A stretch of DNA of 64,000 nucleotides from positions 19,744,446-19,808,445 of the forward strand of contig OZ014411.1 in assembly GCA_963965975.1 (NCBI GenBank), given 5' to 3'. A model generated the notes under the pieces. The model was given only the letters and a program-made list of their open reading frames with translations, did no database searches and was not told where the DNA came from. The translations under genes and the position numbers were made by a program. Shown here one piece after another: positions 200 to 49,932 of this stretch. This DNA comes from Xestospongia bergquistia (lineage: Eukaryota > Porifera > Demospongiae > Haplosclerida > Petrosiidae). Every line of letters starts with the position of its first letter. Position 1 is the first letter of the stretch.

Positions 200-960
200 T
201 TCTAATATTTTCAATTATTTTAGATTGTGGGCCAGAAAACTATCAAAGCTATTACTTAGCACTTTAGGTAGTGTTATGACATCATTCTATTACACATTAA
301 AATCTTCTAACAAGCCTTTTATAAATGACAATAATTCTAAAGTTTATATATATCTCATTATTAGTTCTTTGTAGCATATTGTATAATCAAGGTATCACTT
401 AGAATACTTCTACTATTAAAGTAAGACATGATGACCAGTAGTGTCAGGTGTCATTGATAGAAGTTATCATATCCTGTATAAACGTATTGATTATGATTAT
501 TTAATAATAATTTAAAAAGTGGGACCAGTTAAACCAGCAGTTATTCCTGTATTATCAGTGTCTATTTTATAATATGTAAAACAGTCAATAAACAAATTAG
601 TCTAACCTTGGTCTACTATCTCAGGAAGTGGTTTTAAGACTTGTTCTATGTCATTCTACTTTAATTAAGGAGATGCAAGATCCTGTACATGATATAGTAG
701 AGTAATAAAATAAGTTCAAAATTAAAATAACATGTAATTATTAGATAGACAGGTAAAAAGGATACACTACACATTACTTCAATGTGTTGACAATCTTGGA
801 TCAAACAGTGTTTTGTCAGTAAAGGAACAATTTGAAAAACGAATCTTTACTTCCAACTATACTTGTATATATTTGACATTAATTTGATCATTATTAATTC
901 CTTTAATATCAATTTTAGTAAGAGCACTAATAACAACATCTACTATGAAATAAAGTGTAC
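200..960 (-). pseudogene. Decayed copy of the Roc-COR exon tail and downstream linker exons
   Basis: This stretch matches about 8.17-9.06 kb in the same order. Positions 740-960 resemble the C-terminal coding part of the Roc-COR exon, 600-730 the first linker exon, 390-470 the short GITPDTAG-type exon and 200-330 the following intron. Frames are broken by small indels and stops. Because the order is that of a gene end lying downstream of the intact gene, the simplest reading is the leftover 3' part of a second tandem gene copy. The similarity is seen directly; the tandem-gene reading is inference. Confidence 0.6.
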
Positions 961-2459: not shown

Positions 2460-2520
2460 TATTTGGTTCTGTTATAGTAACATCAATTGTAGTCTCTTGA
2501 GTGCCTTCATTTTCTGCTTC
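2460..2520 (-). CDS. Acidic linker exon after death domain 2
   Basis: A 61-bp exon entering in phase 0 after the death-domain exon and leaving in phase 1, with a GTACAG acceptor and a GTAAGT donor. It encodes a Glu/Thr-rich linker beginning EAENEGTQETT. It is a near copy of the 6541-6610 exon, three codons shorter. Confidence 0.55.
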
Positions 2521-5500
2521 CTGTACAAAATGATTTACATTCTTAACTACAAATATCAGTGATATTAGTTATTTGTAGATTTTACAATAATATTATTAAT
2601 TCCATAATTCATTAATCATAACAAAAAGAATACTATAATAACTGATAAGCACTAATGTACAAAAGGAACCTTTGTCACAGTAGTTGCTGAATTACACTAA
2701 GTGATTTTATTACCAGGCTACCACTGTATAGAATAAAATAGGCAACAGGATTATCTGAGTGAAGACAATCCTATATAATAATCACATATTTAATTTGTGC
2801 AAATAAAGAGATGGTGTTAAAACCACAGGCATGACAAGGTAAAATTATGTTAACTATTATAAAAAACTAACCAGAAATCTCTTTAAATAATCTTTGTATT
2901 GACATGCCACATTATTCTGTCTTATAGCTCTTAAAGCAATTAACAAATTCCTCCTAGTTGCATTTTCAGCTTTTTGTTGAATCCATAATCGATACATACG
3001 TGCTAGGTCAGTACATCCATCTAGATCCACAACATCCAGTCCTAGTTTTACACCCAAATGATACCACTCAGCAGTTCGAGCAAACTCAGTTACTTCATTC
3101 AAGTCTGGTTGTTGATTTAAAAGTATCTCTAATGAAGGAGATACAACGATTTTATCTGACATTTTAATATTAGAGTAATAATCTTAGAAATATAGACATA
3201 TATATATAATATTCTAAATACCAACATCACAATACAAATGCAATAGGACACAAGTACTGTTAATTGTGTTACTAAGCAACTCTTCATTTTGACCAATCAA
3301 ATTGTACTCAATGGCATATTCCATGTATGGCTTCAATATACAAACCATGGATAGGGAAATGACATCAGTTAACTGTAATGGTGTGCATTTGACAGTCATG
3401 TTTTGCAAGTGGCATTTCTTTAAGGCTACTAAGAATGGACATTTAGAGTTTAGGGTTAGAGTTGTCTAGGATGTAGGGTTTAATACATATCCACTATGTG
3501 TAATGTGTATGCTCAGTAATAATTTTAATGATAATATTTGTTGATGAATAATGATTATAGATAATTTGTACAGATGAACAAACAGTAAATGTTTAATGTT
3601 TGTAAGGAACAACTATTCTGTAAACTTTGTAGCTCAATACTCTACACTCAAGACTCAGTAATAGTAAGTAGGTACCTAAATAAGTCTATGAAGTGACTGT
3701 AATAGTTATTTGAAAGCAATATAGTAGGAATGCAATGGACAATTTTTCAGACCTGTCCCCATAGCTTAATAATAAGACATTATAATATTGAATTTCATTA
3801 CTTAAGTAAGAAATCTCACCCAACTTATTCTCTACTACAGTAGTAGTGTCACTAACAGTTAGTTCTGACTTTTCAGATCCTATGAGATAATACATAACAA
3901 AATTATACAATTTAAGACCAACTATGGTATGCTTTGTTGGGGGGTGACTTGCTGGCTTGTTCTATGTTGCTGCCAGAGTGAGCTATATTAACAAAAGGGG
4001 CACTCATTTCTATATATTACTTCAATATTTTAGAAAAGCTTATGTAATATTTTATGTGACATTATATTAAAACATGAGTATATTCTATCTTTAATGTCAC
4101 TTACTTGTTGTCTCCTGTATTTGTTGCAATTCAAGACTAGAAATTACCAAACCCATTGGCTCACTTGACTCATTTATTCCATAAAAAGTAAGCTCTAGAT
4201 CAGTTAGTTCTTTGTTATCTTTGAAGGAAACTTCAAAGTTTAAAGAAGGTAGGGCAGTGTTTGGTTTATATCGATCAATGATGTCCCTAGTAAGCTTAAA
4301 CAATACATAATTTAAAACTTCACAATATCAACTAGGACTTTACTTCTAATGGAGTGACTTTTGGCTTAATGTCATAATTCTTCTCATTAGTGATTTTAAC
4401 CACAATTATGTCAGGATTAATAAAAGGACGTAGGTCTCTCCTTTTCCAGTTTTGGAAACGTTGCTCCGTGTTCACACTCTAATATAGATAAAGAACATGT
4501 ATACAGTGATAATATAGTGTTGTAGTTCTTTTTACATTATGGCTACATACTTCAATAAGAGGTGGAAGATTTTTTGTGACCACTGCATGTATTTCCCAAC
4601 AAAACTTGAGTACCTCCTTGAAAAAAACTGTCATGACATAACTGCATTGAGATTGATGATCCTTTTCTTTTTTGATGCCAATAGCAATGAGACAAAATTC
4701 AGGGATTCCTACAACACCAAAATTGTCATTAGGTCTGAACACTTGTTCATATTTAGTTGGTAATGGCTCAAACTTGTAAGGTGGTGGTCCTTTAGCTCTG
4801 ATAAATGCTAGCTGTTCACTTTCTTCTAGTGACTTGAGCTCAACATTATGTTGGAGGTGAAGCTTAATAGGTCTAGAGAATTTTCCTGTTTTTTTTATTT
4901 CGTAGATACAGCTAACAAACTCAACATTAGGAGGAAGGATGATCTCTGAATCCTGTGGTGAAACTATGCTCACTTCAATGTTGACTTCTTGCCCTTCTTC
5001 CACTGATGATGGTGGAACAACAAACTTCACTCCATACTCTGGTTTCTCAAAAACTTGCTCTTCATTGACGTATTCAATATTCCATTTAGACACATTTTTC
5101 AAAACTAAATAACAATAAATCAAACAAGTAGGAGTACTAGTACATTTATTAACCTTGTTTGCAGGGAACATCTTTCTTTGAAGGAACTTTGGAAATAATC
5201 GGGCTAATATCTGAAGTAGAAAACAAATAGGGACAAATATATTATATCTTCAGTAACCATTGAATTATTGCTTCAGTATTTTAAAAAAGCTTAAGTAATA
5301 TTTTATATGACATTGTATTAAAACATGAGTATATTCTATCTTTAACGTCACTAGAAAAATATTAACTTTTTCTTTGAAAATGACATCACGTGGGAACAGT
5401 TTATATACTAATAATCCAAACAGAAAATGGTAATGATAGCAATATATATAACTTTTTGGTGTAGTTTTTGTAAATAAAAACTTTGAAAAATATGAATAAT

Positions 5501-8500
5501 TCACTCATTCATTTATAATAAACAGTGGCTATCTATTATGTAACTGAAATATTTATTAATATTACATATATATGTCCACTATCACATATTGTTGTATGTG
5601 ACTTTCAAGAGTGATAAATGAAATTATACTACATTCTGTAACTGTTGATTTATATTTGAAAGTGATGCAATTAATAGTATTTATAATGAATTATTGGTAA
5701 CCACAGTACTTTTCGTTACTGATACTAAATTTTAAAGAATTCAATAAAGTACAGAACCTTTGTTGCAGTAATATATGGCTGAATTACATTGAGTATTGAG
5801 TACTAAATAACTTAGGCAATAAGATTGTCAACACTTATATATTTAAAGCAAATAAAACGATGGTATTAAAACCACAGGAATGGCAAATGGCATTAGTTAG
5901 CCCTAATCATGTACATTTGACAGTCATGTTTTGCAAGTGACTCTTCTGCTAAGCATGCATGTTTAGAGTTTAGGGTTAGAGTTGTCTAGGGTTTAGGGTT
6001 TAATACATATTCACTATGTGTAGTGCACATACTTGGTCATAATTTTAATGATAATATTTTGTCAATGAATAGATAATTTTTAAACAGTTGAGGTTTGACA
6101 TTTATTAGGAACAACTATTCTGTAAACTTTGTAGCTCAATACTCTACACTCAAGACTCAGCAATAGTAAGTAGGTACCTAAATAAGTCTATAAAGTGACT
6201 GTAATAGTTATTTGAAAGCAATATAGAAGGAAAGCAATGGACAGTTTTTCAGTCCTGTCCCCATAGCTTAATAATAAGACATTATATTGAAATTAATATT
6301 GAATTTCACTACTTAAGTAAGAAATCTCACCCAACTTAGTCTCTGCTACTGTAGTAGTGTCACTAACAGTTAGTTCTGAATTTTCAGACCCTGTATAAAA
6401 TATGAACTAAAAATCTTGTTTATAAGATGACATTTTAGTGATTAAAGATATAGTATAGTGTCATTAAATTACTTCTAACAGTCAATCATTTAAGATTATG
6501 GCCAAGAACAAGACTAACTAAATAATGTCTACATACTTACTATTTGGTTCTGTTATATGTAAATTAGTTACATCAATTGTAGTCTCTTGAGTGCCTTCAT
6601 TTTCTGCTTCCTGTACAAAATGATTTACATTCTTAACTACAAATATCAGTGATATTAGTTATTTGTAGATTTTACAATAATATTATTAATTCCATAATTC
6701 ATTAATCATAACAAAAAAAATACTATAATAACTGATAAGCACTAATGTACAAAAGGAACCTTTGTCACAGTAGTTGCTGAATTACACTAAGTGATTTTAT
6801 TACCAGGCTACCACTGTATAGAATAAAATAGGCAACAGGATTATCTGAGTGAAGACAATCCTATAATAATCACATATTTAATTTGTGCAAATAAAGAGAT
6901 GGTGTTAAAACCACAGGCATGGCAAGGTAAAATTATTTTTAATAAAGTATATACTGACATGTTAACTATCATTACAAACTAACCAGATATTTCTTTAAAT
7001 AATCTTCGTATTGACATGCAACATTATTCTGTCCTATAGCTCTTAAAGCAATTAACAAATTCCTCCTAGTTGCATCTTTAGCTTTTTGTTGAATCCATAA
7101 TTGATACATTTGTGTTAAGTCAGTACATCCAGCTAGACCCACACCATCCAGTTCTAGCTGTACACCCAACAGACGCCATTCAGCAGTTCGAGCAAAGGTA
7201 GTTATTTCTTTTAAGGCTGGTTGTTGATCTAATGAAGGAGATATAACAATTTTGTCTGACATTTTAATATTAGAGTAATAAACTTATAAATATAGACATA
7301 TATAAAATATTCTAAATACCAACATCACAATACAAATGTAATAGCACACAAGTACTGTTAATCATGTTACCAGACCAATCAAATTGGCATATTCCATGTA
7401 TGGCTTCTATGATACAAACCACTTACGGGAAATGACATCAGTTAACTGTGTGCATTTGACAATAATGTTTTGCAAGTGACACTTCTTTAAGGCTAATAAG
7501 AATGGACATTTAGAGTTTAGGGTTAGAGTTGTCTAGGCTTTACGGTTTAATACATATCCACTATGTCTAATGCATATGCTCAGTAATAATTTTAATGATA
7601 ATATTTGTTAATGAATAATGATTATAGATAATTTGTACAGTTGATGTTTAAGGTTTGTAAGGAACAACTATTCTGTAAACTTTGTAGCTCAATACTCTAC
7701 ACTCAAGACTCAGTAATAGTAAGTAGGTACCTAAATAAGTCTATCAAGTGACTGTAATAGTTATTTTAAAGCAATATAGTAGGAAAGTAATGAACAGTTT
7801 TTCATGTTATATTGAAATTAATATCGAATTTCACTACTTAAGTAAGAAATCTCACCCAACTTAGTCTCTACTACAGTAGTAGTGTCACTAACAGTTAGTT
7901 CTGACTTTTCAGACCCTATGAGATAATGTATAATAAAATAATACAATTTAAGACCAACTTTGGTATGCTTTGTTAGGGGGTGACTTACTGGCTTGTTCTA
8001 TGTCACCAAGGATGGGCTGGAGATCAATTTTTCTTGGTTCTTTCCCTGAACAAAGTATATAATATAATTAACATGATATCTTAATAACAAATAGGGAAGT
8101 GAAAATTATAGTTCTCTTTTAACTATAATGTAAATTAATAGTATATTCATAAAATTAGTCCTAATAATGATAATGAAGATTGTGGACACAAAAACTCTTG
8201 CATATAAAGATAGCACTTAGCAGTTTATCATAGAGCTATGACATCATTCCACTACATTAAATAAACTTTCTATAAACGAGACAAAATATACGAATATATT
8301 TCAATGTTTGACAGTTTACCAATAGCTATCTGTTGTTTATAACAAACATGTCAAACATAATTAAGGTCTCACCTAATATACCTCCTACTGTTAAAGTAGG
8401 ACATGATGAACCAGCAGTGTCAGGTGTAATTCCTTTATAAATAAAATATATCAGTAATACAATTTATTGATAATGATTATTTTATTACTTAAAGAAACAG

Positions 8501-11500
8501 GATCAGGTGATCTAACAGTTTCTCTTGTGTTATCAGATTCTATTTTCATAATATGTAAAACAATCCATAAACAAATTAGACAAACCTTGGTGTATTTTCT
8601 CAAGAAGTGGTTTAGAGACTTGTTTTATGACATTCTCAGTTAATAACGGGGAGGCAAGATCCTTTACATGATATAAAAGGATTAATATAATATCTTTAAA
8701 ACTAAATGACTTGTACATTGTTGCAGTTACACTAAAAGTAATAATAACTCACTTACCAAAGGATTGCGTCCAGCAAATATGCTGAACTGGCTACAGTGCT
8801 CCATTACAGATGCATAAGAATATTCAACAGACGATAAAAAGGATACACCACACATGTCTTCAATATGTTGTAGATAATCTTGTTGGACTGGTGACTCAGC
8901 ATTACTTGGGTCAAATAGTGCTTTGATCACTAAGGGAGCAATTCGAAAAAATGGATCTTTACTCCCTACTATATCTTCAATGTGAACGTTGTTAATGTCA
9001 ACTTTAGTAAGAATACCCACAGCAACATCTTCCATGGAATAAAGTGTGCGTTGACATACCTCAAGAGTATGAGGATTAGCTACTTCATTAGGTGCAATCA
9101 TGTACTCATCACTTGTACATGAACATAGTCGGTTCTTAAGGTTCAGAATGGTATTAATAACTGAGTTAAAAACTTTGTGACTTTCAGTCATCTCTTTGTT
9201 TGAAGCAAGTACTGTAACACATCGATTGTGCTCAGATACTTCAACAAAAAACTTAACTCCAGCTTCATTCTCCCAATATATACCATTAGTCCATACATTA
9301 CAACGACGAGCTAATGCTTCAACAATTGGATTAGCTTTGTAAAGTTTACATGGTTTTCTTCGAGGTGGGAGGGGGAGGCAATAGGTATAGGCAAGGCTAA
9401 GAAGAAGCATATGAAGAAATCGAGTCGACAGGAACTCATAAGGATCAGGACACCACAGACACCATCCCAATCCATTCACTATATTAATATCATCAGGTGG
9501 TTCAGCATCAATGTGTGCAGGAAAAAATAAAAGCTCATCAAATGGCATAGGTATTGATGTTGATATGTTAGTTTCAAGGCAATCAAGTGCACTTGATTCA
9601 ATAATGTGACAGAACTGTAGGCTTCTAAGAAATCCTACTAACATATCAATATCATGATGAGGAAAAACTTCCTTAAGAACTGATAGAGGTACAATGCCAG
9701 TATTACTAGCAATATTACGATAAACACGCTGGATTGCCTGTGGGGCAAATAGGACACCGTTAACTTCTTTGAGAAGAGCTGTTTTGTCAATTACTACCCA
9801 ACTTTTATTTTCCTTATTTCTGAGGAATAATATAAGACCCTTGTCACTCAAAGTGGTCAGAAATTCTAATAACACTGACATTTCTGATGGAAGAGAAGGG
9901 TCATTATGCTCTTTTAATAAGACAAATAGCTCTTCTAAACTAATAGCCACTTCTTTAAGAAGCTGTAAAAAGGAGTACTGGACATGGCAATAAAAGCTGA
10001 TTTTGTTGGATCGATCAAGAACAGCTTTACAGCTCTCAGAAAGCATAGAAATAAACTCTTTTACTCCTTTACCTCCTGGACGATGACATTCCATAGGTAG
10101 AAACCCACGGTATTCTTGTGAATGTATAACCTTCTTAGCAATTCCATCAACCAATCTATGGATTGGGTCAATACTAGTAGTCAGCTCATCCAGTCGACTA
10201 CCAACAACGATGATTTGTGATTTCATTGAGCTCTTCATTCCTTTACAAATCTCCTCAATAAACTTAAACCAGTAATGAAGATACTTTATCAGAATCTCTT
10301 CATTTAAGATCAGCTGGAAAAGAACCAAAAATACAGCAGGAGAGTTCAACATGAGGTTTTCAAGGACAGCAGCATGACTACTATAGTATTCCTTCTGACC
10401 AGCGAGATCATAGAGGACAATATTTCCTACTTCATGGCTTGTGAAGGTATGTGTATCAATACCAGCTGTTAGTGGTTCTACTGTGACACATTTGGATGTA
10501 TCAAAATTGTGATTGGCTGGTTTGTTAGCTCGTTCCATGATAACTGCAGCAAGAGAACTTTTTCCAACAGAAGTGTCACCACAGACAACTACCTTGCTAT
10601 AGGATTCCACAGGGAAGTCAGCTTGACACTGTTTAAATGGCGCAAACATTTTTAAAATCTCGAAACGATTGGTATTGCGGCGAGGAACAAGTTCCATTGG
10701 TGCTTGTCCATTGTTGTTCTTAGACATTGGATCAACTTTTCCAGAAGATAAGAGAAATTTGATGACACCAGTGGAGCCTTCGGAGCAAGCATTGTGAAGT
10801 GGTGTATTACCACTCTAAGTAAGATAGAATAGTAATAAGGTCTACAGTATTTACATTATAGTGTAGTAAATAACATAATAATAGGCTGTTTGATGAATAA
10901 ATGGCTAAATTCTGTTAAGGAGATAGGAATAAGAGACTTTTGAAAGTGATATGCCAGATCACATGTCATCAATTCATCATTCTACTTTTAATGCCTCCTA
11001 TTCAGTTATAAGTATACATAAAAATATATATTTAAATAAGAAGATCATCTTACAAATCAATAAATCAGTGAATTCTATTTGTCTATGCTAGAATTTATTA
11101 TCTATTAGAAAATGAATATCAATATATATCTCTAAAACCATGTTTACACACATGCAGCATAATTAGTTAATATCAGTCATATATTCCAAAAAAGCAAAAA
11201 GTTAATTTTGTACAGAATTAATCATCATAGGATAGATGAGCTTCCAGTGTTTCATGTATGAACACATGTATATAATGAGAAATAATTTAATATTATAATT
11301 ATGATCTATTACAGCTCTTTTATTTATAAATGTATTTCGTAACAAATTTAGAGAGAATCTAAACATTCCAATTCAATTAACATAACCTGAAAAATAAATA
11401 TTCAAATGTTTAAAACCTTCAGGACACATTAGCTAGATGTATGTTTATAATGGAATAGTCTTTATTAAGTTATATGGAATTGAGGTGGCCATGTGGGTGT

Positions 11501-14500: not shown

Positions 14501-17500
14501 CGGGAGTGCTGTGGTTGATTTATAAACACGACCGGATGTGTTATAAGTGTTTTATAGTACGTTGCTAGGTGGCTGCTTGGCAACATCGTGACGTAATTGC
14601 AACGCACGACACACGTGTTTGTGAAAAGGCGACTGGATTCAAGCTTTTCATATAACGATATACACCAGATAGCAACAGATATAATGTTTTTGGAGGATAA
14701 AGCCCGCCGTCTTGTTTCCTGGTCTCTGCAATAAAAAGGCCTAGCCACTTACTCAAAATAGTGGGATCAGTGCTCTGTAACAACGCCTCTGGAACTTGTT
14801 CTTCTGGTACATAGCATTTCGAGCTTTACTCCATTCGTTATAATTTTTAACAGCCCACATAGTCGACTCTTGCGTGTTCTTTGGTTGGAACTGCACACTT
14901 AATATATCTTTCTCGCATTTACCCAGATATTGCACTGTGGTTTGTGATAATGCATTGTGGGCTGGGTGAGAATGTTTTAGTTGATTTAATACAGCCTTAT
15001 AATCATAGCAACCACCTAGCAACGTACTATAATATAAACCTAATTTATAACATCCTCAATTATGTACAAAGGCAGTTGTCAATATATAACTTATATTATA
15101 CTCACCCTGTTCTTCACATCAATGTGAACATTACAATTAAAAATAGCAGCAACAATATCAACATTGTTATGAAGAGCAGCAAAATGCAAAGCTGTGTCGT
15201 TGTTCTGAGAACACAAAGACAATATAACAAGTAAAATGTACAAATTACCTTTAATGTAGCAACAATGTAACTGGATTATTTAATTATATAATGACATTGA
15301 ATATCAGTGTACTTTAATGATAAAGTACATAGTATCTAACTTGTAATATTTATAATGTTGAATGTGACAAATGGATATGTATACCAATTTTAGCATTTTT
15401 ATTAATATTAAATCTACAGTAAGCCCTATCCTAATAGTTGTTAGTAATTCTGATATAGCAATTTGTATATGTAGCATGTAGGTACTCAGTTATTAATTTT
15501 AAACATTAACAAAACTTTTACACTTTATTCCAAAGAGTTGGTGTACAAACTTTATTACTGTATATACAACACCACACTTACATAACATTTAGTCACACTG
15601 AATGCAAGTTTAGAAAAATGTGCCAATGTAAAACATAGCATCACTCAATGGCCAGAATTTCCTTAAAATAGAACAACTTATACTTTAGTCTCAAATTTCC
15701 TGTTGAAGTTGTTCTTTTTATCTCATGTTGACTAATTACTTGTAATTTACATGTCATCAAGTTGTAGTAAGTGAAGCTCTTTTAATAGTTCATTACAGAA
15801 GGTAAAATATCACAACCTACTTTGTGAAGTAGTGCTACAACTTACATTATCTACAATGTCAACAGAACAGCCACTCTTAATCAGAAAAAGTGCAATATCT
15901 GTATGGTTCTTGCTAGCAGCAATCACGAGTGCTGTCTTCCCTTCCTATAATATAATATGTAATGAAAATAAAAAGATAAATACATAAATGATACTCCTTT
16001 TGTAATTTTTTGGTTTTGTTAATTATGAAAACATCTCAATCTCAACAAGAATGTTTAGTTTACATACAATAGAGATTTAGAATATAAAAGTTATAAAAAT
16101 ATTGAATTGCATACAATTACTACATTATATTATACTTACTTTCTATTATATTATATATTTTGTTACAAATGACTTATTATAACCTTAATTAGTAGTTTAT
16201 AATCTATGGTATAAGTAATAAAAACAGTTTAAAAATGGGTGTGGTTGCCAAAAAGCTACACTGTAATATAATCTACAAGTACAGATAGTCACATTCAATA
16301 TTGTGGCATATTAAAACTCATTGCTTACAATGCATGTTAGTAGTCAAAGCATGCAGATCAATTTTTTGGGTAAGTCTCATGAAACAATACAATAAAACAA
16401 TGAAAACAAATATACTCATACAGAAAACATGTATAGTCCAAAAAATCTTAGTTAGCACATGTACCTTGCCAACATTACCAACTCAATATCAAACCAATGC
16501 TAATGTATACATGAATACATAGTAAATTTGGCTGTTGTTAGTTTAGTATGTAAGAATAAATTATAGTTTATTTACTTCAATCACATACTTTGAATTTTAC
16601 ATGATAATATAAATTAGTTAGCACAAATGTCATAATAATAACTTCATAATAATATGACATGGACTTTGTTTTAATACAGATGTTTTCAATGTGAAATTTT
16701 TAGCATGGAAATTAAAGATAACAGAACCATTATTTTAATAGTATAAAAAATAAAAACTATCATTCAAACTTGCAAGGACATGACAAAACAATGAGCCATA
16801 ACATCAAACTTAATATTTCGTAAAAAGCATAAACTTTTCACCAAATGATATAGACTGTGATTTAAAATATAATTTCTGTCAAAGAGCAAGCTAGTTTTCA
16901 CGTTAATATTACCATCAAGTTCTTTGGACTACTACCTGATTGAGAATGTAGTATAAAAATAATATACACACTTGTCAATGTCAGGTAAAACATCTTTTAT
17001 CATTACAATGCTAATGCTTATTAAACAGTGATCTTCCGGTCATAGCTTCTGATTACCAAAAAAACTGATTTTTATTATTATTTAAATTACCTTGGTAGTG
17101 ACAGTGTTGATATCAACACCATTATCAACTAATGCTTTAACAATGGCTGTGTGGCAGTACAAATATTGCATTGAACGATGTAAACTGATTTACTTGGTGG
17201 CTACTAGGAGGAAGATATAAGTAATCTTTACAAGGACATGCTTATTTTCCAGTATTATAATAGAGATACTAAATGAAACATGGCATTATAGAAGCTAAGG
17301 ATTACTCCACAATGGACTGCATTTACCCTAAAAATATGTATATTACTTTCAACACAGCCAGACATTCAGGTGGATATCAGTGGGTTGTCCTGATATTCTT
17401 AAACAACAGGTGAAGAAGGTCATATTCATGTACACATTATTTTGCATCTTTTCTTGTCTACTAATGAATCTTATAATCAAAGCATTCTTAATTGAGAACT

Positions 17501-20500
17501 ACTTCAAAATATTATAACATTAGTTCAGTACATGATGTAACAAAACCTTATGACACTATGAAATGGACTACATTAGATTATGACATTCACTATTTTTCAT
17601 GATTTTAAAATCACTTCTTCCTTCAATACTATGTCAAGTAATGTTGATAACATTTAAGAAATGAGTAGTAATACAATATTTACAATAACAAACAAATAGA
17701 TACTTACATTGTCAACAAGATTTAGATTGGCTCCTCTCTCTATTAACATCAAAACAATGTTTTTGTGTCCCTTCATTGTTGCTATCATGACAGGACTAGA
17801 TCCTTCCTAAGAATTATCATAATAAACATGATAATATATAACAATCAGTATAGATAGGTATCATAACAGTTGTATATTATCTATATTACATACACATACT
17901 GCTGTACATGTATTATATTGGAATCATCATATAGCTAAAATAAAGTACTAACAAAATATGTGTAACTGATGTACTTACCAGCTATTAAGTTATGGTAACA
18001 AATAATCACAGCATCATAAAATAGAAGGAAAACAATACAGTAAACAAAGTAATCAAAATAATAACAATTAAACTGCATACACATACAAATTATACAACAG
18101 TAAACAAAGTAATAACAAGAGTATAATTCAATAACAATCCCATAATTTTGTTTAGGAAGATAAAGACTTTACAGTCAAAAACTGACTACAAAAGTACAGG
18201 TTTGATAGACACATCGACAATTAGCATACCAATAGATATGGAAGACTAAAGGCAAATATATAGCATATATACATTACAAATTGTACTACATTATATCATA
18301 CTTACCACCTATTAAATTATGAAGAACACATTCAGATAACATACAATCCCCACCATCATAAAAGTACAGACAAAAATAATAAAGTAAACAAAGTAATAAA
18401 TATTGAATTGCGTACAATTACAAATTACACTACATTTTATCATACTTACTCTCTATTATATTATGAAGGAAACATTCAGATAATATACAATCCCTCCATC
18501 ATAAAAGTACAGACAAAAATAATACAGTAAACAAAGTAATAAATATTGAATTTCATACAAGTATAAATTACACTACATTATTTTATCATACATTTTATCA
18601 TACTTACTCTCTATTATATTATGAAGGAAACATTCAGATAATATACAATCCCTCCATCATAAAAGTACAGACAAAAATAATACAGTAAACAAAGTAATAA
18701 ATATTGAATTGCGTACAATTACAAATTACACTACATTATATCAGACTTACTTTCTATTATATTATGAAGGATACATTCAGATAACATACAATCCCACCAT
18801 CATAAAAGTACAGACAAAAAGAATACAGTAAACAAAGTAATAAATATTGAATTGCGTACAATTACAAATTACACTACATTATATCAGACTTACTCTCTAT
18901 TATATTATGAAGGATACATTCAGATAACATACAATCCCACCATCATAAAAGTACAGACAAAAAGAATACAGTAAACAAAGTAATAAATATTGAATTACAT
19001 ACAATTACAAATTGTACTACATTATATCATACTTACCCACTATTATATTATAAAGGACATATTCAGATAGCATATAATCACACCATCATAAAAGTACAAA
19101 CAAAAACAATACAGTAAACAAAGTAATAAATATTGAATCACATACAATAACAAATTGTACTACATTATATTATACTTACCTCCTATTATATTATGAAGGA
19201 CATATTCAGATAACATTCAATCACACCACCATAAAAATAGAGACAAAAGCAATACAGTAAACAAAGTAATAAATATTGAATTGTTTACAATTACAAATTG
19301 TACTACATTATATTATACTTACCAGCTATTATATTATAAAGGACATATTTAGATAACATACAATCACACCACCACAAAAATTGAGACAAAAGCAATACAG
19401 TAAACAAAGTAATAAATATTGAATTATTTACAATTAAAAATTGTATTACATTATATCATACTTACTTCCTATTATATTATAAAGGACATATCCAGATAAT
19501 ATATAATCACACCATAATAAAAGTACAAACAAAAACAATACAGTAAACAAAGTAAATAAATAATGAATTACATACAATTACAAATTGTACTACATTATAT
19601 CATACTTACTTCCTATTATAAAGGACATATTCAGATAACATTCAATACCCACCACCATAAAAGTACAGACAAAAACAATGCAGTAAACAAAGTTATAAAA
19701 ATATTGAATTGCATACAATTACAAATTGTACTACATTATATCATACTTACCAGCTATAATATTATAAAGGACATATTCAGATAACATAAAATATCACCAT
19801 CATAAAAGTAGAAACAAAAACAATACAGTAAACAAAGTTATAAATATTGAATTGTTTACAATTACAAATTGTACTAAATTATATCATACTTACCAGCTAT
19901 TATATTATAAAGGACATATTTAGATAATATACAATCACACCATCATAAAAGTACAAATAAAAACAATACAGTAAATAAAGTAATAAATATTAAGTTGCAT
20001 ACAATTACAAATTGTATTACATTATATCATACTTACCAGCTATTATATTATAAAGGACATATTCAGATAATATACAATCACACCATCATAAAAGTACAAA
20101 CAAAAACAATACAGTAAACAAAGTAATAAATATTAAGTTGCATACAATTACAAATTGTATTACATTATATCATACTTACCAGCTATTATTGTATAAAGGA
20201 CATATTCAGATAACATACAATCCCCACAACCATAAAATACAGAAAAAACAATACAGTAAACAAAGTAATAATTATTAAATTACATTATATTAAGCTACAA
20301 TTGTAAATTTAACAACTTTTGTTAACATATTATTCAATGAAACAATCATTTAATTTAATATGTACTACCTACATTTTGAATTGTTCATAACATGTACAGT
20401 TCCTCACTTTATAAAATTACATACTATCACTTTACATTAATGGAACTATGACATATAACAAAATTGTTTTTTAAAATGATTAAAAAACAGTAAATATTCC

Positions 20501-23500
20501 TTAGTAAATCTTTTATCAAATATCAATTGACATTTATCTTAAAGATACATTTATATTATTTTTACTATGCTAGTGTACATGTTAATACTAATATCAACTT
20601 CTTTGGACTACTACCTAATTGGGAATTTTGTACAATTATAATACATAAAAACTTGTCAATGTCAGGTAAAACATCTTTTATCATTATAATACTAATCATT
20701 ATTAAACAGTGATCTCCCAGTCATAGCTTTCACATTAAAAAAAACACTCATTTTTATTATTATTTAAATTACCTTAGTAGTGACAGTGTTGATATCAGCA
20801 CCATTATCAACTAATGCTTCAACAATGGCTGTGTGGCCTCCATATGATGCAAAATGAAGAGCCGTCCACCCAGCCTATTATAACAGAAAAAACAAACAAA
20901 CAGTCTGATCAATGGACATCAATATTGCTATAATTATATGTAGCTTTGAAGTTTAAAGTAAAACACAACATTAAACAATGTAAACTCATTTAGTTAGTGG
21001 CTACTAGGAGGCAGATATAAGCACTCTTTACAAGGATATTGTCCTAAACAAGACTTTCATTGTTGAAAAATATCAAACAAAAAATTAAAGTTTAAGGAAC
21101 TGATGTTTCATAAGATAGGCTTTATTACTAGATATGTGTGTACACTTTAACCAATTATTAATGATAGATGTAGATGTCAAATGAAGATATTACCTGACAC
21201 AAACGTTATAACAAAATTATCCCAACTACACAACATCACTTTGTTCAATTCTAATATGCTCATGATGATATTCTTTGTTTTGGTATACTCCTATATTTAG
21301 ACTTAGTCCTACATGATTGTATTTATGTTGTTAACTGACATCCATGCATGTTTAATTTCCAGTATTATAATAGAGATACTAAATGAAACATGGCATTATA
21401 GGAGCTAAGACTTACTCCACAATGGACTGCATTTAGCCTAATAATATGTATGTTACTTTCAATACAGCCAGACATTCAGGTGGATATTGGTGGATTGTCC
21501 TGATATTCTTAAACAACAGGTGAACAAGGTCATATTCATGTACAAATTATTTTGCATCTTTTCTTGTCTACTAATCAATCTTATGATCAAAGCATTCTTA
21601 ATTGAGAACTACTTCAAAATATTATAATATTAGTTCTGTACATGATGTAAAAAAACCTTATGACACTATGAAATGTACTACATTAGATTATGACATTCAT
21701 GATTATGACATTCATGATTTTAAAATCACTTCTTTCTTCAATACTATGTCAAGTAATGTTGATAACATTTAAGAAATGAGTAGTAATACAATATTTACAA
21801 TAACAAACAAATAGATACTTACATTGTCAACAAGATTTAGATTGGCTCCTCTCTCTATTAACATCAAAACAATGTCTCTGTGTCCCCTCATTGTTGCTAT
21901 CATGACAGGACTAGATCCTTCCTAATAATTATCATAATAAAAATGATAATATATAACAATCAGTATATATAGGTATCATAACAGTTGTATATTATCTATA
22001 TTTACAATAACAAACAAATACATACTAACTTTGTTAACAAGATTTAGATTGGCTCCTCTCTCTATTAACATCAAAACAATGTCTTTGTATCCCCTCATTG
22101 TTGCTATCATGACAGGACTAGATCCTTTCTAATAATTATCATAATAAACATGATAATATATAACAATCAGTATAGATAGGTATCATAACAGTTGTATATT
22201 ATCTATATTACATACACATATTGCTGTACATGTATTATATTGTAATCATGATATAGCTAAAATGAAGTACTAACAAAATATGTGTAACTGATGTAAATAA
22301 AGTAAAGATACACAATGATCAAATATAATGTACACATCTAATAACAAGAAGATAATCAACAACTTGACTTTAGAGATAAAACATCTCAATAGCAATGACT
22401 TTGTTATATCTTCTCTAATAGTTAACTACCAGTCTTAGCTTTAAAATTGTTCTAAATTAGATAATACTTACCAGCTATTAAGTTATCAAGATCATGGTAA
22501 AAAATAATCACAGCATCATAAAATAGAAGGAAAAACAATACAGTAAACAAAGTAATCAAAATAATAACAATTAAACTACATATACATACAAATTATACAA
22601 CAGTAAATAAAGTATTAACAAGATTATAATTCAATAATCATCCTATAATTTTGTTTTGGAAGATAAAAACTTTACAGTCAAAAAAACTGACTACAAAAAT
22701 ACAGACTTGATAGAGATATGGACAATTAGCATAGCAATGAATATCGAAGACTATATAGGCAGAGAAGCAAGATAGTAACAAACTTCAAACTATTGAAATA
22801 TCATTAATTGTACACACTATCACTGTTAGTGGTATGTAATTCATTGGTTGCCACGTCCCTCATCAATTAATGTATGTAGTTTAATTTATACACAGTTTAA
22901 AAAACCACATACAACAACAAAATAAAACGAAACATCAACATATCAATATATATATAGATTACAAATTGTACTACATTATGTCATACTTACCACCTTTTAT
23001 ATTATAAAGGACATATTCAGATAACATACAATCCCCACCACCATAAAAGTACAGACAAAAACAATGCAGTAAACAGAATAACAAATGTTGAATTGTATAC
23101 AATTACAAATTGTACTACATTATATCATACTTACCCACTATTATATTATAAAGGACATATTCAGATAACATACAATCCCCAACATCATAAAAGTACAAAC
23201 AAAAACAATACAGTAAGTAAACAAAGTAAATAAATATTGAATTACATACAATTACAAATTGTACTACATTATATCATACTTACCCACTATTATATTATAA
23301 AGGACATATTCAGATAACATACAATCCCCACCATAATAAAAGTATACACAAAAACAATACAGTAAACAGAGTAACAAATATTGAATTGTTTACAATTAAA
23401 AATTGTACTACATTATATCATACTTACCCTCTATTATATTATGAAGGATACATTCAGATAACATAAAATACCACCATCATAAAAGTAGACACAAAAACAA

Positions 23501-26500
23501 TACAGTAAACAAAGTTATAAATATTGAATTGTTTACAATTAAAAATTGTACTACATTATATCATACTTACCAACTATTATATTATAAAGGACATATTCAG
23601 ATAACATACAATCCCCACCACCATAAAAGTACAGACAAAAACAATGCAGTAAATAGAATAACAAATGTTGAATTGTATACAATTACAAATTGTACTACAT
23701 TATATTATACTTACTTCCTATTATATTATGAAGGACATATTCAGATAACATACAATCCCACCATCATAAAAGTACATACAAAACAATGCAGTAAACAGAA
23801 TAACAAATGTTGAATTGTATACAATTACAAATTGTACTACATTTTATTATACTTACTTCCTATTATATTATGAAGGACACATTCAGATAACATACAATAC
23901 CCACCATAATAAAAGTATAGACAAAATCAATACAGTAAACAAAGTAACAAATATTAAATTACATTATATTAAGCTACAATTGTAAATTTAACAACCTTTA
24001 TAACATACTATTCAATGAGACAATCATTTAATTTAATGTGTACTACCTACATTTTGAATTGTTCATAACATGTACAGTTCTTCACTTTATAAAATTACAT
24101 ACTATCACTTTACATTAATGAAACTATGACATATAACAAAATTGTTTTTTAAAATGATTAAAAAACAGTAAATATTCATTAGTAAATCTTTTCTCAAATA
24201 TCAATTGACATTTATCTTAAAGATACATTTATATTATTTTTACTATGATAGTGTACATGTTAATACTAATATCAACTTCTTTGCACTACTAATGCAGTAA
24301 CAAAGTAATAAATATTAAGTTGCATACAATTACAAATTTGACTACATTATATCATACTTACCCACTATTTTAGTATAAAGGACATATTCAGATAACATAC
24401 AGTCCCCACCACCATAAAAGTACAGACAAAAAAAAAGCAGTAAACAAAGTAATAAATATTAAGTTGCATACAATTACAAATTGTACAACATTATACCATA
24501 CTTACTTTCTATTATATTACATTCAGATAACATTCAATACCCACAATCATAAAAGTACAGATGGAAACAATACAGTAAACAGAGTAACAAATGTTGAATT
24601 GAATACAATTACAAATTGTACTAAATTATATCATACTTACTTCCTATTATATTATAAAGGACATATTCAGATAACATACAGTCCCCACCACCATAAACGT
24701 ACAGACAAAACCAATTCATAAACAAAGTAATAAATATTAGGTTGCGTACAATTACAAATTGTACTACATTATACCATACTTACTTTCTATTATAGTATAA
24801 AGGACATTTTCAGATAACATACAATTCCCACCACCATAAAATACAGACAAAACCAATGCAGTAAACAAAGTAATAAATATTAAGTTGCATACAATTACAA
24901 ATTGTACTACATAATACTATACTTACTTTCTATTATAGTATAAAGGACATATTCAGATAACATACAATCCCCACAACCATAAAATACAGAAAAAACAATA
25001 CAGTAAACAAAGTAATAATTATTAAATTACATTATATTAAGCTACAATTGTAAATTTAACAACTTTTGTTAACATACTATTCAATGAAAGAATCATTTAA
25101 TTTAATATGTACTACCTATGTTTTGGATTGTTCATAACATGTACAGTTCCTCACTTTATAAAATTACATACTGTCACTTTACATTAATGGAACTATGACA
25201 TATAACAAAATTATTTTTTAAAATGATTAAAAAACAGTAAATATTCATTAGTAAATCTTTTATCAAATATCAATTGACATTTATCTTAAAGATACATTTA
25301 TATTATTTTTACTATGATAGTGTACATGTTAATACTAACATCAACTTCTTTGGACTACTACCTAATTGGGAATTTTGTACAATTATAATACATAAATACT
25401 TGTCAATGTCAGGTAAAACATCTTTTATCATTATAATACTAATCATTATTAAACAGTGATCTCCCAGTCATAGCTTTCACATTTAAAAAAACATATTATT
25501 TAAATTACCTTAGTAGTGACAGTGTTGATATCAGCACCATTATCAACTAATGCTTCAACAATGTCTGTGTGGCCTTCATTTGATGCAATGTGAAGAACCG
25601 TCCACCCATCCTATTATAACAGATAAAACAAACAAACAATCTGATCAATGGACATCAATATTGCTATGATTATATGTAGCTTTGAAGTTTAAAGTACAAA
25701 CACAACATTAAATAATGTAAAGTCATTTAGTTGGTAGCTACTAGGAGGAAGATGTAAGCACTCTTTACAAGGATATTGTCCTAAACAAGACTTTCATTGT
25801 TCATGATGATATTCTTTGTTTTGGTATACTCCTATATTTACACTTAGTCCTGCATGGTAGTATTCATGTTGTTAACTGACATCCTTACATGTTTAATTTC
25901 CAGTATTATAATAGAGATACTAAATGAAACATGGCATTATAGGAGCTAAGGATTACTCCACAATGACCTGCATTTAGCCTAATAATATGTATGTTACTTT
26001 CAATACAGCCAGACATTCAGGTGGATATCGGTGGGTTGTCCTGATATTCTTAAACAACAGGTGAACAAGGTCATATTCATGTACACATTATTTTGCATCT
26101 TTTCTTGTCTACTAATCAATCTTATGATCAAAGCATTCTTAATTGAGAACTACTTCATAATATTATAATATTAGTTCAGTACATGATGTAACAAAACCTT
26201 ATGACACTATAAAATGGACTACATTTAGATTCTGACATTTGCTAAATTTAATCTTTTAAAAATTACTTCTGCCTTCAATACTATGTCAGGTCATCTTGAT
26301 AACATTTAAGAAATGAGTAGTTATACAATATTTGCAATAACAAACAAATACATACTTACTTTGTCAACAAGATTTAGATTGGCTTCTCTTTCTAATAACA
26401 TCAAAACGATGTCTTTGTGTCCATTCATTGTTGCTAACATGACAGGACTAGATCCTTCCTAAGAATTATCATAATAAACATGATAATATATAACAATCAA

Positions 26501-29500
26501 TATAAATAGGTATCATAACAATTGTATATTATCTATATTATTAATTACTGCAGTACATGTATTATATTGTAATCATCATATAGCTAAAATAAAGTAATAA
26601 CAAAATATGTGTAACTGATGTAAATAAAGTAAAGATACACAATGTTCAAATATAATGTACACATCTAATAACAAGAAGATAATCAACAACTTGACATTAG
26701 AGATAAAACATCACAATAGCAATAACTTTGTTATATCTTCTCTAATAGTTAACTACCAGTCTTAGTAATAACAAGATTATAATTCAATAATCATCCTATA
26801 ATTTTGTTTTGGAAGATAAAAACTTTACAGTCAAAAAAACTGACTACAAAAATACAGACTTGATCGAGATATGGACAATTAGCATAGCAATGGATATCAA
26901 AGACTATATAGGCAGAGAAGCAAGATAGTAACAAACTTCAAACCATTGAAATATCATTAATTGTACACACTATCACTGTTAGTGGTATGTAATTCATTGG
27001 TTGCCATGTCCCTAACCAATTAATGTATGTAGTTTAATTTGTACACAGTTTAAAAAAACAAATACAACAACAAAATAAAACGAAACATCAAAATATTGAT
27101 ATATATATAGATTACAAATTGTACTACATTATATCATACTTACCATCTATTATATTATAAAGGACATATTCAGATAAAAGATACATTCAGATAACATTCA
27201 ATCACACCACCATAGAAATAGAGATAAAAACAATACAGATAACAAAGTAATAAATATTGAACTGTATAAAATTAGAATTTTTACTACATTATATCATACT
27301 TACCACCTATTATATTATAAAAGATACATTCAGATAACATTCAATCACACCAACATAAAAATAGAGATAATAAAATACAGTTAACAATGCAATAAACATT
27401 GAATTGCTTAAAATTACAAATTGTACTACATTATATCATACTTACTTCCTATTATATTATAAGAGGTACATTCAGATAACATTCAATCACACCAACATAA
27501 AATTAGAGATAAAAGCAATACAATTAACAATGTAATAAACATTGAATTGCTTACAATTATAAATTGTACTACATTATATCATACTTACATCCTATTATAG
27601 TATGAAAGATACATTCAGATAACATTCAATCACACCACCATAAAAATAGAGATAAAAACAATATAGTTAACAATGTAATAAACATTGAAGTGCTTACAAT
27701 TATAAATTGTACTACATTATATCATACTTACCACCTATTATATTATAAAAGATACATTCAGATAACATTCAATCACACCACCATAAAAATAGAGATAAAA
27801 ACAATACAGTTAACAACGTAATAAACATTGAATTGCTTACAATTATAAATTGTACTACATTATATCATACTTACATCCTATTATAGTATAAAAGATACAT
27901 TCAGATAACATTCAATCACACCACCATAAAAATAGAGATAAAAACAATATAGTTAACAATGTAATAAACATTGAATTGCTTACAATTTCAAATTGTGCTA
28001 CATTATATCATACTTACCCACTATTATATTATAAAAGATACATTCAGATAACATTCAATCACACCACCATAAAAATAAAGATAAAAACAATACAGCAAAC
28101 AAAGTAATAAATATTGAATTGCATACAATTACAAATTGTACTACACTATATCATACTTACCCACTATTATAGTATAAAGGACATATTCAGATAACATACA
28201 ATCCCCACCATAATAAAATACAGACAAAACCAATGCAGTAAACAAAGTAATAAATATTAAGTTGCATACAATTACAAATTGTACTACATTATACCATACT
28301 TACTTTCTATTATAGTATAAAGGACATATTCAGATAACATACAATTCCCACCACCATAAAATACAGACAAAACCAATGCAGTAAACAAAGTAATAAATAT
28401 TAAGTTGCATACAATTACAAATTGTACTACATTATACCATACTTACTTTCTATTATAGTATAAAGGACATATTCAGATAACATACAATTCCCACCACCAT
28501 AAAATACAGACAAAACCAATGCAGTAAACAAAGTAATAAATATTAAGTTGCATACAATTACAAATTGTACTACATTATACCATACTTACTTTCTATTATA
28601 GTATAAAGGACATATTCAGATAACATACAATACCCACCATCATAGAAGTAAAGACAAAAACAATACAGTAAACAAAGCAATAATTATTAAATTGCATTAT
28701 ATTAAGCTACAATTGTAAATTTAACAACGTTTGTTAACATACTATACAATGAAACAATCATTTAATTTAATATGTACTACCTACATTTTAAATTGTTCAT
28801 AACATGTACAGTTCCTCACTTTATAAAATTACAAAATTGTTTTTTAAATTGATTAAAAAACAGTAAATATTCATTAGTAAATCTTTTCTCAAATATCAAT
28901 TGACATTTATCTTAAAGATACATTTATATTATTTTTACTATGATAGTGTACATGTTAATACTAATATCAACTTCTTTGCACTACTAATGCAGTAACAAAG
29001 TAATAAATATTAAGTTGCATACAATTACAAATTTGACTACATTATATCATACTTACCCACTATTTTAGTATAAAGGACATATTCAGATAACATACAGTCC
29101 CCACCACCATAAAAGTACAGACAAAAAAAAAGCAGTAAACAAAGTAATAAATATTAAGTTGCATACAATTACAAATTGTACAACATTATACCATACTTAC
29201 TTTCTATTATATTACATTCAGATAACATTCAATACCCACAATCATAAAAGTACAGATGGAAACAATACAGTAAACAGAGTAACAAATGTTGAATTGAATA
29301 CAATTACAAATTGTACTAAATTATATCATACTTACTTCCTATTATATTATAAAGGACATATTCAGATAACATACAGTCCCCACCACCATAAATGTACAGA
29401 CAAAACCAATTCATAAACAAAATAATAAATTTTAGGTTGCGTACAATTACAAATTGTACTACATTATACCATACTTACTTTCTATTATAGTATAAAGGAC

Positions 29501-32500
29501 ATTTTCAGATAACATACAATTCCCACCACCATAAAATACAGACAAAACCAATGCAGTAAACAAAGTAATAAATATTAAGTTGCATACAATTACAAATTGT
29601 ATTACATAATACTATACTTACTTTCTATTATAGTATAAAGGACATATTCAGATAACATACAATCCCCACAACCATAAAATACAGAAAAAACAATACAGTA
29701 AACAAAGTAATAATTATTAAATTACATTATATTAAGCTACAATTGTAAATTTAACAACTTTTGTTAACATATTATTCAATGAAACAATCATTTAATTTAA
29801 TATGTACTACCTACATTTTGAATTGTTCATAACATGTACAGTTCCTCACTTTATAAAATTACATAGTATCACTTTACATTAATGGAACTATGACATATAA
29901 CAAAATTGTTTTTTAAAATGATTAAAAAACAGTAAATATTCATTAGTAAATCTTTTATCAAATATCAATTGACATTTATCTTAAAGATACATTTATATTA
30001 TTTTTACTATGATAGTGTACATGTTAATACTAATATCAACTTCTTTGGACTACTACCTAATTGGGAATTTTGTACAATTATAATACATAAAAACTTGTCA
30101 ATGTCAGGTAAAACATCTTTTATCATTATAATACTAATCATTATTAAACAGTGATCTCCCAGTCATAGCTTTCACATTAAAAAAACATATTATTTAAATT
30201 ACCTTAGTAGTGACAGTGTTGATATCAGCACCATTATCAACTAATGCTTCAACAATGTCTGTGTGGCCTTCATTTGATGCAATGTGAAGAACCGTCCACC
30301 CATCCTATTATAACAGATAAAACAAACAAACAGTCTGTTTAATGGACATCAATATTGCTATAATTATATGTAGCTTTGAAGTTTAAAGTACAAACACAAC
30401 ATTAAATAATGTAAACTCATTTAGTTAGTGGCTACTAGGAGGCAGATATAAGCACTCTTTACAAGGATATTGTCCTAAACAAGACTTTCATTGTTCATGA
30501 TGATATTCTTTGTTTTGGTAACTCCTATATTTACACTCAGTCCTGCATGGTAGTATTCATGTTGTTAACTGACATCCTTACATGTTTAATTTCCAGTATT
30601 ATAATAGAGATACTAATTGAAACATGGCATTATAGAAGCTAAGGATTACTCCACAATGACCTGCGTTTAGCCTAATAATATGTATGTTACTTTCAATACA
30701 GCCAGACATTCAGGTGGATATCGGTGGGTTGTCCTGATATTCTTAAACAACAGGTGAACAAGGTCATATTCATGTACACATTATTTTGCATCTTTTCTTG
30801 TCTACTAATCAATCTTATGATCAAAGCATTCTTAATTGAGAACTACTTCATAATATTATAATATTATTTCAGTACATGATGTAACAAAACTATATGACAC
30901 TATGAAATGGACTACATTTAGATTGTGACATTCGCTATATTAAATGTTTTAAAAATTACTTCTGCCTTCAATACTATGTCAAATAATCTTGATAACATTT
31001 AAGAAATGAGTAGTAATACAATATTTACAATAACAAACAAATAGATACTTACATTGTCAACAAGATTTAGATTGGCTCCTCCCTCTATTAATATCAAAAC
31101 GATGTCTTTGTGTCCCCTCATTGCTGCTAACATGACAGGACTAGATCCTTCCTAATAATTATCATAATAAACATGATAATATATAACAATCAATATAGAT
31201 AGGTATCATAACAGTTGTATATTATCTATATTATTAATTACTGCAGTACATGTATTATATTGGAATCATCATATAGCTAAAATAAAGTAATAACAAAATA
31301 TGTGTAACTGATGTAAATAAAGTACATGATGTAAATACACAATGTTCAAACATAATGTACACATCTAATAACAAGAAAATAATCAACAACTTGACTTTAG
31401 AGATAAAACATCACAATAGCAATAACTTTGCTATATTTTCTCTAATAGTTAACTACCAGTCTTAGTAATAACAAGATTATAATTCAATAATCATCCTATA
31501 ATTTTGTTTTGGAAGATAAAAACTGACTACAAAAATACAGACTTGATAGAGATATGGACAATTAATAAAGCAATGGATATCAAAGACTATATAAGCAGAG
31601 AAGCAAGATAGTAACAAACTTCAAACCACTGAAATATCATTAATTGTACACACTATCACTGTTAGTGGTATGTAATTCATTGGTTGCCACGTCCCTCATC
31701 AATTAATGTATGTAGTTTAATTTATACACAGTTTAAAAAACCACATACAACAACAAAATAAAATGAAACAACAACATATCGATATATATATACATTACAA
31801 ATTGTACTACATTATATCATACTTACTTCCTATTATATTATAAAAAATATATTCATAACATACAATACCACCATCATAAAAGTTCAGACAAAAATAATAC
31901 AGCAAACAAAGTAATAAATATTGAATTGTTTACAATTACAAATTCTACTACATTATATCATACTTACCCACTATTATATTATAAAGGACACATTCAGATA
32001 AAATAAGTTCCCGCCATCATTAAAGTGGAAACAAAAACAATATAGTAAACAAAGAAATGAATATTTAATTGCATACAATTACAAATTGTACTACATTATA
32101 TCAAACTTACTTCCTATTATATTGTAAAGGACATACTCAGATAACATAAAATAGCACCATCATAAAAGTAGAAACAAAAACAATATAGTAAACAAAGAAA
32201 TGAATATTTAATTGCATACAATTACAAATTGTACTACAGTATATCATACTTACTTCCTATTATATTATGAAGGGTATATTCAGATAACATACAATACCAC
32301 CATCATAAAAGTAGGAACAAAAACAATACAGTAAACAGAATAACAAATGTTGAATTGTATACAATTACAAATTCTACTACATTATATCATAAAGGACACA
32401 CTCAGATAACAAACAATCCCCACAAATACAACACAGTAAACAGTAATAATTATTAAATTCCATTATATCAAATCTATTTCATTACATGTTATCAAATGAT

Positions 32501-37600: not shown

Positions 37601-37712
37601 TTGAAATAATTAAATTAGACTGGAACAGTATTCATTCCCTTGACAAACTCTATCACTCTCAACACTTCTTGACAAGTATACTGACCTATTTTGAATAACT
37701 ATTTGTGTATCC

Positions 37713-47391: not shown

Positions 47392-47453
47392 TTACATAAC
47401 TAATAATTATTATTGAATGTAATACTTTACAATGGGAAAACATGTTATTATAA

Positions 47454-49856: not shown

Positions 49857-49932
49857 TTTCGTAGCAGCACCGTTTATTTCCGCATTATTTCCGCATACTA
49901 TTCAGCCACACCCCTTGTTTGCAACGAAATGG
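49857..49932. promoter_or_regulatory. Bidirectional promoter candidate, H6PD / membrane protein
   Basis: Only 76 bp separate the start codons of the minus-strand H6PD-type gene and the plus-strand membrane protein gene. The spacer is more GC-rich than its surroundings, contains CGTTTATTTCCGCATTATTT and no TATA box. An out-of-frame ATG at 49929 precedes the plus-strand start and would give an 18-codon upstream frame. Confidence 0.5.

Follow-up and report, generated by a model that had tools for sequence, protein, structure and literature searches.

A candidate recombinant gene of ankyrin, Roc, ZU5 and Death modules within a large ROCO-like family of the sponge Xestospongia bergquistia

The stretch of DNA analysed here (the window: 64,000 nucleotides, 19.744-19.808 Mb of contig C1, in a genome of 146 Mb and 21 contigs) carries on its minus strand what we read as a recombinant gene from a very large family of ankyrin-Roc receptors, translated as one protein, with shorter isoforms produced via possible last exons; judged from the sequence, this reading could go either way. 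The first-pass annotation had described one protein of singular order, with ankyrin repeats followed by Roc-COR, ZU5 and two death domains. That singularity did not survive, as 5 of 150 places encoding a window-type Roc share the arrangement Death-ZU5-Death and the gene belongs to a family with at least 150 Roc places. The window gene is a variant among ROCO-like proteins, and the family surrounding it is the larger and more interesting result.

The gene model (34150-2280, minus strand, as are all its exons) joins 28 exons in phase into 1,775 amino acids, and its sole stop is the terminal one. All 28 acceptors are AG and 26 of the 27 donors are GT, the remaining one (exon m) being GC, and the chosen coding exons contain neither stops nor frameshifts. 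The first coding exon was not located, and the model start at 34150 falls mid-codon. Of the 29 exons with joining phases that had been proposed, the phases do join, but the number of exons definable here was 28 (truncated ankyrin exons near 17.15 and 13.86 kb were excluded); likewise, the 3′ limit had been put at 2460, and the model ends further on. The first two ankyrin exons found (34150-34056 and 33286-33185) are followed by twelve single-repeat exons (31151-31053, 30304-30203, 26458-26360, 25610-25509, 22128-22030, 21921-21823, 20874-20773, 17806-17708, 15944-15846, 15204-15106, 12732-12634, and 11989-11891). Ankyrin exons encode one repeat each, measure 99 or 102 nt, and keep a single phase after the first exon.

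Exon a (10814-8757) encodes the last ankyrin repeat, the Roc GTPase domain (1.5e-8), and a COR-like region. The linker exons b (8661-8586), c (8432-8373), and d (8045-7989), with 85-100% identity in five clade-1 genes (clades were named by sequence identity, not by tree), lead to exon f (7255-6984), which encodes Death domain 1 (Pfam Death; L061 and L062 have Death exons 84% identical to it in DNA), and to the linker exon g (6610-6541). Exon i (5210-5154), the truncated start of a third Death exon of the DeathA type, serves as a linker in the model and precedes exon j (5104-4551), which encodes the ZU5 domain (Pfam ZU5, 3.7e-5), where EFC stands in the position of the FS cleavage motif. A UPA domain would be expected in exons k (4478-4344) and l (4294-4105). 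The small exon m (3982-3953), with its GC donor, is a hybrid whose 5′ part belongs to clade 2 and whose 3′ part belongs to clade 1; it is followed by exon o (3155-2872) with Death domain 2 (Pfam Death, 25.3 bits; 99% identity to L061 and L062) and by exons p (2520-2460) and q (2311-2280), the latter containing the stop and being 100% identical in L061 and L062. Three possible last exons reach a stop in the joining phase: e (7915-7818, stop at its end, present too in L061, L062, and L063) before Death1, its second copy h (6390-6293) after Death1, and its third copy n (3879-3686, stop at 3686) before Death2. Because these exons interrupt the model three times, we infer, rather than read off, the single spanning transcript.

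Beyond the window gene, a 464-bp tandem repeat (2.3 copies) and then a reverse-transcriptase fragment (RVT_1, 1.2e-9) occupy 36281-38617. The region 46468-58447 contains other genes, namely an IF-2B family enzyme (46468-47391), a fusion of G6PD and phosphogluconolactonase (47457-49901, minus strand), an fn3 frame (51251-52540, minus strand), a RING/B-box frame (53096-54196, minus strand), and a pyridine-nucleotide oxidoreductase (from 55172).

When the joined protein, which lacks the first exon, was compared with Pfam, it matched Ank_2 (3.9e-143), Roc (1.3e-8; 35.5 bits, cut-off 27), Death (8.7e-8; 32.6 bits, cut-off 22.6), and ZU5 (4.1e-4; 21.0 bits, at the cut-off of 21). Pfam gave no LRR or NACHT and no kinase, the latter a feature of DAPK1, and TRADD-N found no match at E 0.001 with a Pfam that may not cover the NCOA6-type clade. 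Scored as single exons, the Roc exon reached 35.3 bits (cut-off 27), Death1 22.7 and Death2 25.3 (cut-off 22.6), and the ZU5 exon 24.4 (cut-off 21). Ankyrin repeats, Roc, ZU5, and two death domains were therefore found in the claimed order and joined in frame, with ankyrin repeats, Roc, and Death above and ZU5 at its cut-off, and the two layouts that had been said to fuse here, that of DAPK1-type ROCO proteins and ZU5-(UPA)-death, do meet, ZU5 and both death domains lying in frame 3′ of Roc.

Pfam Roc at E 0.1 matched 20 of 20 relatives, and a profile of 14 sequences without the ankyrin part had eight matches in the PDB (E up to 10), seven of which were LRRK2 Roc (best E 0.05). The P-loop of the window gene, GDTSVGKSS, is intact, and GSRLDE is invariant across 20 aligned Roc-exon sequences. 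DLAGQ, which had been pointed out together with the P-loop and is indeed present, is particular to the window gene; its Q is replaced by H (18) or R (1) in the 19 aligned relatives. The COR claimed after Roc, on the other hand, was not recovered by Pfam COR-A (0 of 20 relatives), by BLASTP of the window Roc exon against two COR-A-positive proteins from the same genome (L068 and L069), or by a PDB profile search, in which the matches listed (best 60 of 98) fell on the ankyrin part. An hhalign profile comparison with the same two COR-A-positive proteins gave a weak match in the COR-A register (P 0.006-0.007, probability 6%; P 0.071 for a control with one unrelated protein), so that the region after Roc in exon a is weakly assigned as putatively COR-like. 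In L068, read to its P-loop, the Roc domain carries a long insert. UPA, implied by the ZU5-(UPA)-death layout, was matched by Pfam in none of four sequences, nor was it among the PDB profile matches, of which there were three at E 0.65 or worse, two being ZO-1 within the ZU5 part. Single-sequence AlphaFold models of exon a (pLDDT 37) and Death2 (44.5) were both poor.

Searched with a 155-aa Roc query, the genome contains at least 150 window-type Roc places (best 150 of 179 candidates, all matching) with identities of at least 47%; 133 of them lie within open frames of at least 600 aa, one of these having two TGA inside the match. A second large family is marked by COR-A, which was found at no fewer than 146 places (among the best 150 of 171 candidates), 124 of them in frames of at least 600 aa, spread over contigs C10, C11, C12, C6, C3, and others, and each of the 146 was more than 2.5 kb away from all 150 Roc places. 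Such counts are lower bounds, and a place does not equal a proven gene. On C13, a pair of Roc places recurs with the same scores four times, ∼200 kb apart (3.41, 3.63, 3.82, and 4.03 Mb), which may be due to a recent large duplication or to an assembly effect.

One or more Death domains accompany at least 78 of the 150 Roc places (169 of 450 Death places taken in). For six Roc places, one of the ZU5 places taken in lay on the same strand no more than 11 kb downstream, and in five of these the order after Roc is Death-ZU5-Death: the window and the loci at 13.26, 13.35, 13.70, and 16.38 Mb. The 16.38 Mb locus has a TAG within the first Death match, and its Roc frame comprises just 396 aa. In the 13.70 Mb locus (L065), the order by eye is Roc-COR, b, Death, linker, ZU5, k, l, Ser/Thr linker, Death, the two Death matches being under the cut-off (19.5 and 19.7 bits vs 22.6). 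Past its second Death, at ∼4574-4658, a possible C-terminal membrane tail was seen by eye (ISWSMVLLGTTFVAVIAYIIYIVIN followed by a stop). Among the 66 of 149 ZU5 places taken in, 60 lacked a window-type Roc in the 11 kb upstream of them, and a Death domain lay within 3.5 kb downstream in 58 of these 60; ZU5-Death is thus more often found without Roc than with it. The Roc-less sites lie at C6:8.38-8.64 Mb and on C1, chiefly at 10.8-17.5 Mb, and the two that were read (L013 and L029) look like ANK-ZU5-Death, with ankyrin exons in front. For two ZU5 clusters, one at 8.4 Mb of C6 and the other at 15 Mb of C1, an upstream Roc domain had been expected; the two regions read there contained no long frame.

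These layouts bear on whether the window encodes one product or two. The main gene may stop at exon h (6293) as ANK-Roc-COR-Death, with the ZU5-Death2 block a transplanted 3′ end that is unjoined or rarely joined. We regard this as a possible but rather doubtful course of events. Exon h is a complete in-frame end, situated exactly where the first-pass annotation had placed the transcript ends that two genes would have; the close paralogs at 19.52, 19.63, and 19.99 Mb possess a single Death domain and no ZU5 in the 6.6-7.2 kb read 3′ of Roc; and the prevalence of ZU5 places lacking an upstream Roc points the same way. However, the phases link g to i to j, and Roc, Death, ZU5, and Death follow one another at four other loci. 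Moreover, an ankyrin scan of 8.7-2.3 kb gave nothing above 7 bits, so that a complete ANK-ZU5-Death gene is absent there; two genes, the second with a full ankyrin array of its own, were excluded on the same grounds.

That the 3′ half was assembled from more than one source is indicated by comparison with individual paralogs. The closest relatives of the window gene, at 19.48-19.99 Mb, are 91-93% identical in exon a over its full length (best 64 of 378 candidates scored, own locus included). Three of them, L061, L062, and L063, have the order a-b-c-d-(e)-Death-(p or g)-q, with a single Death and no ZU5, and L064 (20.94 Mb) has Roc-COR, i, ZU5, k, l, Death, g, q. Window positions 8954-6441 and 3967-1500 are 90% and 96% identical, respectively, to the clade-1 gene L062, with a further clade-1 piece (86%) at 6392-5869. 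The block bearing ZU5 (5263-3969, minus strand) is 87% identical in DNA to the clade-2 gene L064, which also matches an extra 99-base piece at 5453-5355 (83%), and the final junction from clade 2 to clade 1 lies inside exon m and preserves the frame. The Death1 and Death2 blocks, 87% alike, are duplicates of a single clade-1 segment. Read from these alignments, the window gene is a recombinant, in which the ZU5 block of one clade appears to have been placed between duplicated Death ends of another with the frames kept. Exon i aligns with the beginning of the L065 DeathA exon (83% identity over 42 nt) and can be identified as the stump of such an exon. Exons b and c and the final part of exon a recur as degenerate copies 3′ of clade-1 genes, at ∼300-960 (minus strand) in the window, where the copy was recognized by eye, and at ∼1.2-3.0 kb in L061 and L062; they are debris of earlier tandem duplications.

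The modules differ in age. Identity to the 20.94 Mb gene is 62% for Roc-COR, 83% for ZU5, and 93% for Death2, and Death identity among neighbouring genes reaches 99%. The dS of ZU5 to L064 and L065 is 0.21, and that of exon a is 1.21 to L057 (20.76 Mb; 63% identical), which was taken as a stand-in relative. The module ages conflict with the Roc exon, and the simplest reading is that the cassettes moved after the Roc exons had parted. Near-identical tandem paralogs could also be misjoined during assembly, and the neighbours are similar enough in their Roc and Death exons to invite such an error. Nevertheless, an artefact of this kind is very improbable here, the clade-2 block being 13% off L064, which is the closest of the copies compared and the genome's best match for ZU5, and therefore no stray duplicate of it.

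Constraint is evident in exon a, whose dN/dS was 0.20-0.23 against three distant relatives and 0.38-0.50 against five near ones (the Death exon of L063 was left out of the dN/dS analysis). For Death1 vs Death2, dN/dS was 0.97, so no constraint is shown, and when 33 changes were placed at random in 2000 copies, 14% of the copies were also stop-free. Because of this value, the role of Death1 is the weakest point of the proposed mechanism. It would also fit a decaying recombinant in which unequal exchange left the 3′ half as debris that yields no stable protein, as would the remnant exon i with its weak donor (gttaat), the GC donor of exon m, the duplicated possible last exons, and the broken DeathA pieces that L064 retains. 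Yet the intact chosen coding exons, the constraint on the Roc exon, and the long open frames around most Roc places speak against decay, which we consider unlikely.

The ankyrin array had been proposed to be fast-changing, and this was borne out in that the copy number of one exon type varies among close paralogs. The EGSS repeat occurs 3, 6, 6, 5, 7, and 5 times in six genes at 19.483-19.753 Mb (best 150 of 1165 candidates, assigned to genes by position), and pairs spaced 207-212 bp recur. In the window, pN/pS was 1.70 for five EGSS copies and 0.73 for four DGWT copies, both small samples, and two other ankyrin repeat types there showed no silent differences. The introns at 18269-32391 contain arrays of a 143-bp repeat, with 4 to 14 copies each and a strong GC skew, which apparently were duplicated along with the ankyrin exons. 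Another ankyrin intron harbors, at 14568-14825 (minus strand), a QRICH1-like fragment (25.9 bits, cut-off 30.8) that may come from a mobile element.

At the place of the ZU5 cleavage motif, 18 of 22 loci could be compared (L009, L010, L014, and L018 were unaligned there), of which 6 had F-S, 10 had F-C (the EFC of the window among them), 1 had F-T, and 1 had F-V. According to PMC3210808, the acyl shift can begin from Ser, Thr, or Cys, and a change of the residue before F is of little effect; His-270 of CARD8, 27 residues before Ser-297, matters for cleavage (PMC3210808, PMC8081665). The window has no histidine but a lysine 27 residues before F-C, and no invariant histidine was present between 83 and 135 in four aligned ZU5 sequences. 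A PIDD-type HFS in the window was rejected, EFC standing in its place. That F and a potential nucleophile (S, C, or T) are retained in 17 of the 18 loci speaks for self-cleavage in the family, and the ZU5 modules may self-cleave at F-S, F-C, or F-T.

DAPK1-type ROCO proteins consist of a kinase and ANK-Roc-COR-Death. Like them, the window gene has ankyrin repeats, Roc, and a C-terminal Death; unlike DAPK1, it adds ZU5 and a second Death, and the COR profile was not matched in the window. PIDD1, UNC5b, and NLRP1/CARD8 share with it the succession of ZU5, a further module, and a death-fold domain (PMC3210808, PMC8081665), whereas the window has EFC instead of the HFS or SFS of this group, and Roc in front. 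PIDD1 is characterized by LRR, ZU5-UPA-Death, and an HF/S site, where the window gene has no LRR, no UPA match, and EFC for HFS; the FIIND of NLRP1/CARD8 has F-S plus a histidine, where the window has F-C and lysine at −27. Canonical ankyrins contain ZU5(2)-UPA (PMC3663501), and their layout of an ankyrin array, two ZU5, UPA, and Death differs from the single ZU5 and the Roc present here. Among early animals, Trichoplax, for which at least 17 ROCO genes were reported, combines ROC-COR with death or CARD domains; the word ZU5 is absent from the main text of that paper (PMC4104024). The 357 lineage-specific proteins of the NCOA6-type TRADD-N expansion in Amphimedon resemble the window protein in having Death-like domains and often ankyrin repeats, although the order differs (PMC8195603).

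A parallel to the family is found in brown algae, whose LRR-ROCO genes, 9-47 per species and stated to outnumber those of other organisms reported to date, are proposed immune receptors with one repeat per exon (PMC11378527). Both repertoires are large ROCO families with one repeat per exon, one phase, and duplicated repeat exons, and the brown-algal-type trait of an exon number varying between paralogs is seen here with ankyrin instead of LRR. They differ in repeat type, in exon length (99/102 nt, not 72 nt), in the Death and ZU5 ends of the sponge genes, and in number, at least 150 Roc places in one genome being set against those 9-47 genes (PMC11378527). Among the open PMC papers listed in literature searches, no title or abstract beginning named the full order ANK-Roc-COR-ZU5 with two Death domains; Figure 2 of PMC11378527, with forty animal ROCO combinations, lies outside that scope, and a prior description is possible.

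If the window gene is read as one recombinant protein, its ankyrin array would bind a ligand, Roc and the COR-like region would provide a GTP switch and dimerization, and the ZU5 module and two Death domains would recruit death-fold adaptors, so that the protein would act as a cytosolic receptor for innate or self/non-self recognition. ZU5 may restrain the last Death domain, as in UNC5b and FIIND proteins, and exons e, h, and n would set the choice of isoform. For the family as a whole, we tentatively propose a modular set of several hundred Roc GTPase receptors with exchangeable parts, whose ankyrin exons are duplicated gene by gene and whose phase-matched Death, ZU5-Death, and Death-ZU5-Death cassettes are moved between paralogs by recombination, with ZU5 modules that may self-cleave. 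Such a set would exceed every ROCO repertoire described, would parallel in an animal that of the brown algae, and would work as a germline-diversified recognition system, the recognition role itself being putative. Under this same tentative proposal, the window would present one cassette swap visible at base level.

How simple animals distinguish self, symbiont, and pathogen is an open question, and we know of no vertebrate-type adaptive immunity in invertebrates. If true, the combination of recombining sensor repeats with death-fold outputs as exon cassettes would be a concrete and testable candidate for such recognition, and the idea of ROCO exon shuffling, proposed in brown algae, would reach an animal. 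The natural series Roc-Death, Roc-ZU5-Death, Roc-Death-ZU5-Death, and ANK-ZU5-Death would then offer a way to learn what ZU5 adds to a Roc switch.
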